Assembly (NCBI GenBank): GCA_030654695.1
Contig: JAURWY010000034.1
Coordinates: 1 to 64,000, forward strand
Direction of reading: 5' to 3'
Length of the DNA: 64,000 nucleotides
Source of the DNA: Polaromonas sp.
GTDB lineage: Bacteria > Pseudomonadota > Gammaproteobacteria > Burkholderiales > Burkholderiaceae_C
The position numbers and the translations under genes were made by a program. The notes under the pieces are model-generated. The model was given only the letters and a program-made list of their open reading frames with translations, searched no databases and was not told where the DNA came from. Each line of letters opens with the position of its first letter. The first letter of the stretch is position 1. Shown piece after piece: positions 39,956 to 45,055 of this stretch.

Positions 39956-42900
39956 TCAACCCACCCATTTTCTGGCGTTGTGCCATAGCTGCATCCAAGG
40001 GCTGTAGCCATTAACGTCAGCATCCGTCCAGCTCATCTGCACATTGCGGAAAACGCGTTCGGGGTGCGGCATCATCGCGGTGAAACGGCCGTCGGCCGTG
40101 GTCACTGCCGTGAGGCCGCCGGGGCTGCCGTTCGGGTTTGCTGGATAAGCTTCAGTGGGCTGGCCGAGGTGGTCGGTGAATCGCATCGCGGCGATGGCTT
40201 TGGCCGCATTGCCGCGACGCGAAAAATTAGCAAAACCTTCGCCGTGAGCCACTGCAATCGGCAGCCGCACACCCGCCATGCCTTGCAAGAAAAGGCTTGG
40301 CGAATCGAGCACTTCAACTAGGCCCAAACGGGCTTCAAAGCGCTCGCTGAGGTTGGTGGTGAAACGCGGCCAAGCGTCGGCACCGGGAATGATGCTGGCC
40401 AGTTCAGCAAACATCTGGCAGCCGTTGCAAACACCAAGACCGAAGGTGTCAGGGCGTGTAAAGAAGGCTTTGAATTCCTCTGCCAATACCGCGTTGAACA
40501 GGATCGAGCGGGCCCAGCCGATGCCGGCGCCCAGCGTGTCTCCGTAGCTGAAACCACCGCAAGCCACCACGCCTTGAAAGTCTTTCAACTTGGCGCGGCC
40601 GCTTTGCAAATCAGTCATGTGAACGTCGCAAGCTTCAAAGCCGGCAAGCGTGAAAGCGTAGGCCATTTCAACGTGTGAGTTGACACCTTGCTCGCGCAAG
40701 ATCGCCACACGCGGACGCGACAAGTTCAACGCTGGAGCGCTGACGGTTGCCTTAAATGTTTCAGGCAGATACACATGCAAGCCGGCGTTTTGCGGGTCGC
40801 CAACAGACTCATGTTCAGCATCGGCACCCGCCGGGTTGTCGCGCTGCTGGCAAATCTTCCAGCTGACAGCATCCCAGACCTGATGCAAGTCTTGCAGCTT
40901 GGCGTTGAAGAAGAGCTTGGTGTCGCGCCAGACTTGGATCTGACCTTTGCCAACATCAAGCGCAGCATGTTGCGGTCGGGTCTTGCCAACGAAGTGACTG
41001 AACTTCGACAAGCCGTGTTGACGCAGTACCTGCATCACTTCGTTGCGGGCCGCTGTGCGGACCTGAATCACCACGCCCAGCTCTTCGTTGAAGAGGGCTT
41101 TGAGCGTGAGTTCGTCGCGACGCGCGCTGACCTGTGTGGCCCAGTTTTTACTGTCGCCTGTGTCCATCCGGCTGTCTGAAATACCGTCGCCTTCGACCAG
41201 CAACATGTCGATGTTCAGTGAGACGCCTACTTGCCCGGCAAAAGCCATTTCGCAAACAGCTGCCAACAGGCCGCCGTCGCTGCGGTCGTGGTACGCCAAG
41301 ATGTCGCCTTGCGCACGCAAGGCATTAATGGCGTTGACCAGATTGACCAAGTCTTGTGCATCGTCGAGGTCCGGCACAGCGCCCTCGCCGCGCTCCAGCG
41401 TTTGCGCCAGGATCGAAGCGCCCATGCGGTTTTGGCCTTTGCCAAGGTCAATCAAGATCAGTGTGGTGTCAGCTTCTTCGGTGTTCAGCTGCGGCGTCAG
41501 CGTGCCGCGCACATCGGCCAGCGTAGCAAAAGCGGTGACGATGAGCGAGACCGGCGAGGTGACTTTTTTGTCGTCCCAAACCGTGCGCATCGACAGTGAA
41601 TCTTTGCCGACTGGGATGGATACGCCCAGCGCCGGACACAGTTCCATGCCAACGGCTTTGACGGTCTCAAACAGCGCGGCGTCTTGGCCGGGCTCACCAC
41701 AAGCGGCCATCCAGTTCGCCGACAACTTGACGCGCGGCAACTCAATCGGGGCGGCCAACAAGTTGGTGATGGCTTCAGCCACCGCCATGCGGCCCGAGGC
41801 TGCGGCGTCAGTGGTGGCCAGCGGCGTGCGCTCGCCCATGCTCATGGCCTCGCCGGTAAAGCCTTGGTAGTCGGCCAAGGTCACGGCGCAGTCGGCCACC
41901 GGCACTTGCCACGGACCGACCATTTGGTCGCGGTGCGTGAGGCCGCCCACAGTGCGGTCGCCAATGGTGATGAGGAAACGCTTGGAGGCCACAGTCGGGT
42001 GGCTCAGCACATCGATCACGCTTTTTTGCAGATCGACGCCGGTCAGGTCCAGCGGCGTCACGGCAATCGGCAGACGCTTCACATCGCGGTGCATCTTCGG
42101 CGGTTTGCCGAGCAGCACATTCATCGGCATCTGAACAGGTGTTATGGCCCCCACGCTTGTCGCTTCGCGTACTGCGCTGCCCCCCGAGGGGGCTTCGCTT
42201 GCTTGGGGCGGCCCGGCGCGGCGCGCGGCCTCTTCGTTATCAAACAGGACCAGGTCTTTTTCTTCAGTCGCCACACCGACCACCGAGAACGGGCAACGCT
42301 CGCGTTCACAAAAAGCTTGGAATTGCGGCAGTGACTCTGGCGCAATCGCCATCACGTAGCGCTCCTGGCTTTCGTTGCTCCAGATTTCTTTAGGGCTCAA
42401 ACCGCTTTCTTCCAACGGTACGGCACGCAGATCAAAGCGTGCGCCGCGACCGGCGTCGTTCACGAGTTCCGGAAATGCGTTCGACAATCCGCCCGCACCG
42501 ACGTCATGAATCGCCAAAATCGGATTCGCTACGCCGAGTTGCGCGCACTGGTTGATGACTTCTTGCGCACGCCGTTCAATTTCAGGGTTGCCACGTTGCA
42601 CGGAGTCAAAATCCAGTGCGGCAGCGTTGGTGCCGGTGGCCATCGAGCTGGCCGCGCTGCCGCCCATGCCGATGCGCATGCCGGGGCCGCCGAGCTGAAT
42701 CAGCAGCGTGCCGGCCGGGAACAAAATTTTCTTGGTCAGGCCCGCGTCGATCGTGCCGAGGCCGCCGGCAATCATGATCGGCTTGTGATAGCCCCAACGC
42801 TGACCGTTGACGGTTTGCTCGTATTCACGAAAGTAACCGGCCAAGTTGGGCCGGCCAAATTCGTTGTTAAAGGCCGCACCACCGAGCGGGCCTTCGGTCA

Positions 42901-44050
42901 TGATTTGCAAGGCGCTGGCGATGTGGTCTGGCTTGCCAAAGGCTGTGTCGAACAGCCGCGACACCGTGAAACCCGTCAAGCCTGCTTTGGGTTTGGAGCC
43001 ACGGCCGGTAGCGCCTTCGTCACGGATCTCGCCGCCGGCACCTGTTGAAGCACCGGGGAACGGTGAAATCGCGGTCGGGTGGTTGTGCGTTTCGACTTTC
43101 ATCAGCACATGCGTCAAGACGTCTTCGTGCGCGGCGTAGGGCTGCAGCGTCGAGGCAGGCGCAGCATTGGGTGAGGCTGCTTGCGCATAAAAGCGCTGAA
43201 CCTTGCCACCCTCCATCACCGACGCGTTGTCCGAGTAAGCCACCACCGTGTGCTGTGGGTTCAGCTGCTCGGTGTTGCGGATCATGCCAAACAAGCTCTT
43301 GTCTTGCGGCACGCCGTCAATGGTGAACTCAGCGTTGAAAATTTTGTGGCGGCAGTGCTCGCTGTTGGCCTGCGCGAACATCATCAATTCGACGTCCGTC
43401 GGGTTGCGTTGGAGTTGGGTGAAAGCCTGCACCAAGTACTCGATTTCGTCACCGGCCAAGGCCAGGCCAAACTCGATGTTGGCCGCCTCCAGCGCGGCCT
43501 TGCCGCCACCCAGCACGTCAATCGATTGCAGCGGTGCGGCCTGCAACTCCGCAAACAGCGACGCGGCCTGCGCCCGATCGGTCATGACGCTTTCAGTCAT
43601 CCGGTCGTGCAGCAAGGCGATGATGGCCTCGCGTTGGGGCAGGCTCAAATAGGTTTTACCCAGCAGACCGGACTTGATCGATACGCAGTATTCAGTGATG
43701 CGTTCAATGCGCTTGACCGCCAAGCCGCAGCTGTGGGCGATGTCTGTGGCCTTGGAGGCCCAAGGCGAAACCGTGCCAAAGCGGGGCGAGACGATGAAAA
43801 ACGATGCGCCCGTCGTGTTAGCCGGCCACGTGCGGCAAGGCTCACCGTAGCTCAGCAGCGCCTCAAGTTGGGTTTCCATAGCCTCGGTGGGCGGTACATC
43901 CGTGGCCACCAGATGCACAAACCGGGCGCTGATGCCGGTGATTTTGTCGTTGATAGCTTGCAGGCGGGGAAGCAGTTGCTGGGCGCGGAAGTCGCTCAGG
44001 GCATTGATCCCGCGGGATTCGCCCTCGAAAGTCGTCAGATGCAGGGTCAC
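39956..44050 (-). CDS. purL: Phosphoribosylformylglycinamidine synthase
   Basis: The 1364-residue large PurL catalyses conversion of FGAR to FGAM in purine synthesis. It has an N-terminal PurS-like part, two AIRS-type ATP domains ([18 protein letters not shown]-like catalytic histidine region, [24 protein letters not shown]) and a C-terminal glutaminase with the nucleophile in LGVCNGCQM and HGEG. I choose GTG 44050, which gives [12 protein letters not shown], the family start; the frame runs open to 44389 but that part overlaps map. About 29 extra residues (about 607-635) come from a dispersed DNA repeat inserted in frame (42146-42232). Confidence 0.95.
42146..42232. repeat. GC-rich dispersed repeat inserted inside purL
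   Basis: The segment reads like a known intergenic element of Comamonadaceae: a CGCTTGTCGCTTCGCGTACT stretch, a perfect hairpin GCCCCC-CGA-GGGGGC, then GCTTGCTTGGGGCGGCCCGGC. Its length is a multiple of three (29 codons) and it contains no stop in the purL frame, where it encodes low-complexity Ala/Pro/Gly/Ser residues between the two AIRS domains. No second copy is seen in this window. That it is dispersed elsewhere is from memory of related genomes. Confidence 0.75.
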
Positions 44051-44200
44051 GGTGGCAACGGCCTTGTGGTTGTCGGGGTCGGCGTGTGCCTGGTCCGGAG
44101 GAAAGTAGCGGATGATTTTATCAGTGCTCAGCCGGCATCGATGTGCTTCGGTGAAGCCCTGCCAGGACACGGTCTCAAAGCTGGTGGGATAATCAGTGAC

Positions 44201-45055
44201 ATGAGTATTACGTACAAAGACGCCGCCGGAATTGAAGGCATGCGAGTGGCTGGCAAGCTCGCTTCTGAGTTGTTGGACTACCTGACGCCCTTCGTCAAAC
44301 CTGGCATCACCACCAACGAAATCGATCATTTGGCCCATGTTTATATGACGGAGGTGCAAAACACCATTCCGGCTACCTTGGGTTATCAACCCCCTGGCTA
44401 CGGTGCTTATCCGAAGTCACTTTGCACCTCGGTCAACCATCAGGTTTGCCACGGCATCCCAAACGACAAGCCTCTGAAAAAAGGCGACATCGTCAATATA
44501 GATGTGACCGTGATCAAAGACACTTGGCACGGTGATTCGAGCCGCATGTTCCTGGTTGGTGAAACATCGATCGCGGCCAAGCGGCTGTGCCAAATCACGT
44601 ACGACGCCATGTGGCAAGGGATCATGCGCGTCAAGCCGGGCATTCGCTTGGGTGATATCGGCCACGCCATCCAGACCTTTGCCGAAAAGCAGGGCTTTTC
44701 AATCGTCCGTGAGTTTTGCGGCCATGGCATTGGTCAGCGCTTTCACGAAGACCCGCAAGTGTTGCATTACGGCAGGCCCGGAACGCTCGATGTCCTCAAG
44801 CCCGGTATGACTTTCACCATTGAGCCGATGATCAACATCGGCAAGCGCGACATCAAAGACGGCCCTGAAAAAGACGGCTGGAGCATCGTCACACGTGACC
44901 ACTCTTTGTCGGCGCAATGGGAGCACACTATTTTGGTGACCGAGACCGGCTACGAGGTGTTGACCTTGTCAGCTGGCACGCCGGCAACACCTGATTTTGT
45001 GGCTGTCTATCATGCGGCCGAAAGCACGGTCGCCGGCATTCCCGTCAGTGCCTGA
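44201..45055 (+). CDS. map: Methionine aminopeptidase, type I
   Basis: The 284-residue enzyme has all five metal ligands: two aspartates in [18 protein letters not shown], the histidine in [14 protein letters not shown], and glutamates in TIEPMIN and WEHTIL. It removes initiator methionine from nascent proteins. The frame is open far upstream (to 43181) antisense to purL; ATG 44201 gives [18 protein letters not shown], the family start. It is 27 bp upstream of glnD and divergent from purL. Confidence 0.96.

Follow-up and report, generated by a model that had tools for sequence, protein, structure and literature searches.

A BRE-type dispersed repeat read in frame within PurL of Polaromonas and in other proteins of the genus

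Results

The purL locus and the repeat within it

The window, that is, the whole 64,000-nucleotide stretch of Polaromonas sp. DNA that we analyzed, carries a purL gene whose reading frame passes through a dispersed repeat. The ORF covers positions 5-1290 of the 1290 positions of the FGAM synthase equivalog model NF003672 (NCBIfam, 1960 bits), and a 294-residue query around the insert site had one match in the window's own genome (G000). Since the match to the family model sets in at residue 126 of the listed ORF, the true start is internal to the ORF. The features are as follows.

39956..44389, minus strand: purL ORF (phosphoribosylformylglycinamidine synthase), from the ORF listing, the NCBIfam NF003672/TIGR01735 match and the single genome match
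42146..42226, plus strand: BRE-type repeat of about 81 bp, its far end placed to within a few bases, from genome matches, copy alignment and arm covariation
42159..42172, plus strand: first small hairpin, approximate, read by eye in an alignment of 48 copies
42179..42193, plus strand: GCCCCCCGAGGGGGC hairpin, the one named in an earlier note on this DNA, nearly invariant among the 48 copies
42194..42226, plus strand: third hairpin with variable outer arms and the core GGGGCGGCCC, from arm covariation
42227..42232, minus strand: probable host linker bases outside the repeat

The strand of the repeat that starts with GGCCCCCACGCT is the plus strand, and the minus-strand reading supplies 27 residues of PurL. 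The earlier note had described an 87-bp GC-rich hairpin element (42146-42232) lying in frame in purL. The in-frame reading held: the 87 bp translate as 30 residues in the PurL frame without a stop, and the ORF, identified as purL by NF003672, is open through the stretch. The GCCCCC/GGGGGC hairpin and the G+C content of 79% stood as well, but the length probably did not. GAGGCC on the coding strand (GGCCTC on the plus strand) also occurs at the empty site of a relative (L093), and the last 6 bp or so are therefore probably host linker; this comparison puts the probable end of the repeat itself near 42226.

Across 400 codons of the PurL flanks, we counted 81-107 synonymous and 4-8 nonsynonymous codon differences in comparisons with four of the eight nearest relatives. 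This codon pattern indicates strong purifying selection on the flanks and, very probably, a working enzyme. In the alignment with the solved PurL chain 6jt9_A, the alignment breaks after chain residue 602 and resumes at residue 607; an AlphaFold2 model of the linker had a mean pLDDT of 42.8 and was set aside. The linker between the PurL domains is presumably flexible. An Rfam scan of 41000-43600 gave two weak matches far below the gathering score, neither of them on the repeat.

Dispersal and likeness to BRE

The repeat had 12 BLAST matches (E<=0.001) at 10 separate loci in G000 (3.45 Mb) and is thus dispersed, as the earlier note had supposed, and not unique in its genome. At the same threshold it was matched in 36 of the 37 genomes of the genus, including its own, compared with 1 of 24 genomes from other genera of the same order. 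At least 56 matches were present in G021 and at least 44 in G012, where 40 of 147 and 40 of 136 candidates, respectively, were scored. Two or three full copies lay close together at 14 loci, and shorter matches of 24-51 bp occurred beside copies of about 81 bp. Our main sample consisted of 81 distinct full-length copies from 93 loci, taken from related genomes as the best matches to two queries; their mean G+C content was 75.2% (range, 60.6-82.7%).

These properties recall the Beta-proteobacterial Repeat Element (BRE), which was described from Bordetella (Hot et al. 2011, PMC3110155). The available sections of that source give a size of approximately 75-91 bp, with partial copies of approximately 40-60 bp, and a G+C content of approximately 69% (63.7-78.9% in Bordetella). 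They describe numerous copies, usually intergenic and in part arranged in tandem at a spacing of few bases, and they place BREs in Comamonadaceae, with Polaromonas JS666 having the top count in the table (29 copies). The size class, the tandem arrays and the taxonomic range are shared with our repeat, whose G+C content is likewise high but somewhat richer. The purL repeat thus fits the published description of BRE. A search for BRE on plasmids gave 2 matches among 72,556 records, with no annotated feature beneath a match.

Structure of the repeat

The structure of the repeat is supported by covariation among copies and not by energy. In the alignment of 48 copies (chosen from 80), the core was nearly invariant, and CGC/GCG of the first hairpin was replaced in other copies by CAC/GTG, with both sides changing together (read by eye). 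The arms of the third hairpin paired with a mean of -9.21 kcal/mol in their own combinations compared with -6.16 kcal/mol when swapped (sd 0.26, 200 shuffles); of the 81 copies, 72 fitted the arm pattern and gave 70 distinct pairs, the other 9 having been dropped. Fold stability was rejected as evidence of structure, with z values of -1.13 to 0.01 in four foldings of three copies; on neither strand did the folding energy of the window copy exceed that of dinucleotide shuffles (z -1.13 and -0.53).

Separately, the BRE at one G000 locus (L005, C3:150416-150484) belongs to a second subtype, the left part of which contains another hairpin, CCGGCTTCGCCGG. This subtype is also present, as judged by eye, in PurL of many relatives.

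Copies in other genes

The earlier note had called the element normally intergenic, which proved too strong. In G000 only 4 of the 10 loci are intergenic, and a codon-based caller placed the other 6 in genes. The hosts are PurL, a FemAB-like protein (with tandem copies), MetX, AmgK, a 3-oxo-tetronate kinase (at the N-terminus) and KsgA (a 24-bp remnant). Within the sample of 81 copies, 43 were intergenic, 3 overlapped a gene end and 35 lay in genes; adding 8 further loci (L083-L090) brought the sample to 91 copies, with 49 intergenic, a bare majority, 5 overlapping a gene end and 37 in genes. Fifteen of the 30 best copies in G021 and 9 of the 30 best in G012 were also in genes. Family models identified MoeA, CobQ, PEP carboxylase, PriA, UvrA, FtsY, a biotin carboxylase and glycine dehydrogenase among the hosts. 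When 20 host proteins were compared with NCBIfam, and 10 of them with Pfam, all except the FemAB-like protein had an NCBIfam match at 1e-10.

Two host genes could be followed across genomes. MetX was read in 12 genomes, including the window's own, of which 10 had a filled site and 2 a short remnant. AmgK was matched in 82 of 87 genomes, and we read the 30 best-scoring loci by eye, a selection that leans towards filled sites: 16 had the repeat in one orientation, 10 in the opposite orientation, and 4 had remnants or other sequence. All AmgK repeats sit behind HRDFMPRN. The occurrence of both orientations at one site indicates separate insertions. We also observed that CobQ of G021 (L231/L233) holds at least two in-frame tandem BRE copies near its N-terminus.

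Restriction to two reading frames

The 35 in-gene copies occupied two of the six frames, 22 of them in frame -0 and 13 in frame +0. The four frames lacking in-gene copies were nevertheless open in many copies: +1 in 80 of 81, -1 in 76, -2 in 52 and +2 in 48. The 37 in-gene copies of the larger sample were divided into 24 and 13, and in G000, G021 and G012 alone, 26 of 56 copies lay in genes, 13 in each of the two frames. Counted once per locus, the frames held 19 and 11 of 30 copies; the chance of this under even use of open frames is about 3e-13, a value that is indicative only, the copies coming from related genomes, including shared insertions and not being independent.

The gene caller was ruled out as the cause of this two-frame rule by a placement control. 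With repeats set into 25 host loci in all six registers, the caller accepted 71-93% of the open placements per register. The net charge of the consensus peptide is +1 in both used frames compared with +3 to +7 in the other four. We infer that selection acts on the encoded peptide.

The PurL linker across relatives

We read the PurL linker in 78 of 81 purL loci of the genus, dropping 3 without a complete linker, and in 80 named loci. A motif rule sorted the 78 linkers into 44 bare, 16 with BRE, 7 with partial BRE, 7 with a second repeat (R2) and 4 others. Bare linkers have 20-21 residues and also occur in many of the named loci. The comparison of PurL among relatives that the earlier note had proposed therefore found the residues missing from 44 of 78 linkers and reduced to a remnant in the eight nearest relatives. 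Dispersed copies and bare relatives together ruled out that the PurL residues are unique or ancestral.

The linker of the window has 48 residues compared with 23 or 25 in the eight nearest relatives, and the difference can be traced to one segment:

42163..42231: 69 bp between the CTTCG copies at 42163 and 42232 (CGAAG on the coding strand), absent from six of the eight nearest relatives

The other two (L056 and L091) are two codons shorter still, so that the eight show an in-frame loss of 69-75 bp with a scar kept. A quick DNA tree of purL with the linker removed was built from 61 of the 78 rows, leaving out 17 distant or long-branched rows, and was grouped by hand into 18 BRE, 8 remnant, 6 R2 and 29 empty rows. 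In this tree, the remnant rows form one group that is sister to the window (SH-aLRT 92). BRE plus remnants require 11 changes, and R2, present in 6 rows, requires 6 changes, each of them forced by starred branches. In a protein tree of the 78 rows, the window was nested among the remnant rows, a placement with weak support; we preferred the DNA tree for the placement of the window, and the conflict between the trees stands.

All BREs read in PurL have one orientation, which could partly reflect shared ancestry. Two named records (L153 and L182) hold BRE twice in tandem in PurL. As side observations, L054 (1135-2766) has a 74-residue PurL linker that looks like BRE plus part of a second copy, in frame, and L141, one of the three partial loci, has a BRE-like stretch.

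Other repeat families at the same linker

R2, which is unrelated to BRE, occupies the same place of PurL in seven rows. R2 matches numbered 69 in G060, 61 in G014, 73 in G054, 85 in G006 and 15 each in G071 and G012, where some palindromic copies were counted on both strands and two further R2 genomes (G039 and G043) were left out; there was no R2 match in G000 or G024. The codon-based caller placed all 8 of the best R2 loci that we read in genes, namely, three PurL linkers, two second copies in PurL, two in a gene common to G006 and G012, which we take to be uvrA, and one other. One Hydrogenophaga PurL linker holds a further repeat with 60 matches in its own genome, and one Limnohabitans PurL linker holds another with 24, both counts including both strands and the query itself. 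Taken together, BRE, R2 and the Hydrogenophaga and Limnohabitans repeats make at least four unrelated dispersed repeats in one linker.

We further observed that PurL of G014 and G060 (L285 and L289) has a second R2 in frame, in the linker preceding the glutaminase domain, giving two captured repeats per enzyme. The 85-residue PurL linker of L138 (G043) seems to consist of R2 pieces and another repeat (RPFDKAQDRQAQDRP), and that of an Ottowia (L175) contains a further hairpin-like repeat (PLPPLGEGGDGG...).

Candidate traces of mobility

A GTTAT direct repeat flanks the element at 42141-42145 and 42236-42240. Its reading as a target-site duplication was not supported, because duplication plus element would amount to 95 bp, compared with a net gain of 84 bp over a 20-residue linker, and because the first copy is absent from 7 of the 8 nearest relatives, L091 having it. 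A search of G000 for a transposase gave one Y1_Tnp match (L222, C26:35552-35878). A link to RAYT was rejected, since contig C26, which carries this sole Y1_Tnp match, had no BRE match.

Discussion

Overall, after analyzing the copies, frames and relatives, we consider it highly likely that a BRE-type repeat was inserted into purL and kept in phase as a near-neutral peptide, and that surviving copies are in general frame-limited, lie in tolerant loops and later shrink. In the proposed course of events, a small, non-autonomous, structured repeat would have entered purL, presumably by transposition, in an ancestor that this species shares with its eight nearest relatives. The copy would have been retained because it was in phase, lay in a flexible inter-domain linker and encoded a near-neutral Ala/Pro/Gly/Ser-rich peptide. 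Genus-wide, BREs and other dispersed repeats may enter genes in either orientation, and selection would purge frame-shifting copies and those whose peptides are basic or rich in Cys/aromatic residues. The surviving copies would thus be confined to two of six frames and to tolerant protein loops, where captured repeats may then erode by in-frame deletions. Two suggestions of the earlier note are borne out by these data: that the repeat can move agrees with its presence and absence among relatives, both AmgK orientations and the many host genes, and that the linker tolerates insertion agrees with the purifying selection on the PurL flanks and the unrelated repeats in the same linker.

The insert appears to have no function of its own. 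The opposite reading, in which it is adaptive, either as a useful linker peptide or as a hairpin in the mRNA that sets the pace of translation from one PurL domain to the next, draws on the recurrence at the same linker, the second R2 before the glutaminase domain in two genomes and the covarying hairpin arms. We consider it unlikely: 44 of 78 relatives do without the insert, its larger part has been deleted in the nearest eight, repeats unrelated to it occupy the same place with different peptides, and everything fits mere tolerance.

Somewhat less probable still is one ancient insertion of BRE into purL, inherited vertically and followed by many precise losses. The PurL BREs share their orientation and a nearly identical right-hand junction, and the window clade fits one insertion and one deletion. 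Parsimony on the purL tree does not separate gain from loss and leaves the changes unpolarized. However, the losses near the window leave scars of 23-25 residues, whereas the bare linkers, in the genus and in many of the named loci, are scar-free at 20-21 residues, which favors changes that are mostly gains. In addition, by eye, two BRE subtypes occur at the PurL site, R2 is there in six separated lineages, and AmgK carries both orientations.

We give a similarly low probability to a spread in which purL segments recombined or the repeat was converted, instead of new insertions being made. The insert of G056 is 98% identical to that of the window, although purL of G056 lies elsewhere in the tree. 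Nevertheless, in ungapped comparisons of 150-bp flank windows with the window, G056 (0.77-0.88) is no nearer than the empty row L093 (0.79-0.87), which argues against a simple exchange of whole purL segments. Conversion of the repeat alone would fit these data, but neither form explains the opposite AmgK orientations. An assembly error, a mis-binned contig or a pseudogene is hardly credible; many relatives are metagenome assemblies and five genomes (G029, G038, G039, G042 and G083) have two purL regions, a hint of mixed bins, but similar inserts occur in separate assemblies, the window purL is full length, has a single match and is under purifying selection, and binning does not affect gene trees.

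Insertion of BRE-type repeats into tolerant loops, as we propose, has its closest precedent in the Rickettsia palindromic elements (RPE). According to the available text, RPE (Ogata 2000, 2002) is a dispersed palindromic repeat of approximately 150 bp found in frame in many unrelated genes (PMC10969869), and the title of the 2002 paper describes in-frame palindromic repeats in proteins as unique to Rickettsia. The likeness, as far as this text goes, is one of working and not of sequence kinship: both lie in frame in many unrelated protein genes and yield a peptide within the protein. Measured against the same text, our repeat differs in its size (about 81 bp), its Burkholderiales host, the several unrelated families at one protein site and the two frames on opposite strands. 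Burkholderiales are mostly free-living.

Other mobile repeats are more distant. Miniature elements (MITEs) are marked by target-site duplication and terminal inverted repeats; in purL a target-site duplication is unsupported, and no transposase was found. REPs are mainly extragenic, with copies beside a RAYT (Y1_Tnp) gene, whereas the contig of the sole Y1_Tnp gene found in G000 had no BRE match. The excerpts available state that MITEs, such as ERIC and others, form in-frame fusions (PMC10969869; Coxiella MITEs, PMC5896051) and describe REP/BIME with RAYT transposases as short hairpin repeats in many copies (PMC3733652). Going by these excerpts, our repeat is like MITEs in being short, non-autonomous and sometimes translated, and like REP/BIME in being a short hairpin repeat in many copies.

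The way of working of RPE and the occurrence of BREs within coding sequences are already known, the latter from one sentence in section 14 of Hot et al., in the sections available, that mentions some BREs entirely within coding sequences (PMC3110155). Relative to those sections, the analysis of frame, host gene and site is new here. Among the matches listed in the open-licence literature, there was no earlier report of frame-restricted BREs or of repeats in the PurL linker, nor of in-gene Polaromonas BREs beyond Hot et al. As far as the matches listed there show, three findings are new: a single PurL linker has been used repeatedly by four repeat families, in-gene copies keep to two frames, and one loop holds the repeat in either orientation.

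In-frame repeat capture in Polaromonas affects numerous genes, and the genus, one of the Burkholderiales, has many sequenced species, so that insertion, orientation, frame choice and decay can be read from comparisons of present and absent sites. Since unrelated repeat families have come repeatedly to lie in one PurL loop, repeat DNA appears to be turned into protein segments, and both repeat DNA as a supply of new protein segments and the insertion-tolerant loops of essential enzymes become testable subjects. More tentatively, and with less than even confidence, we speculate that loops such as the PurL linker, with its at least four families, and those of AmgK and MetX may be docking sites for in-frame repeats, and that BRE may have been shaped to read as a harmless peptide on either strand. 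If this is true, a selfish repeat would have a usable habitat in coding genes outside Rickettsiales.
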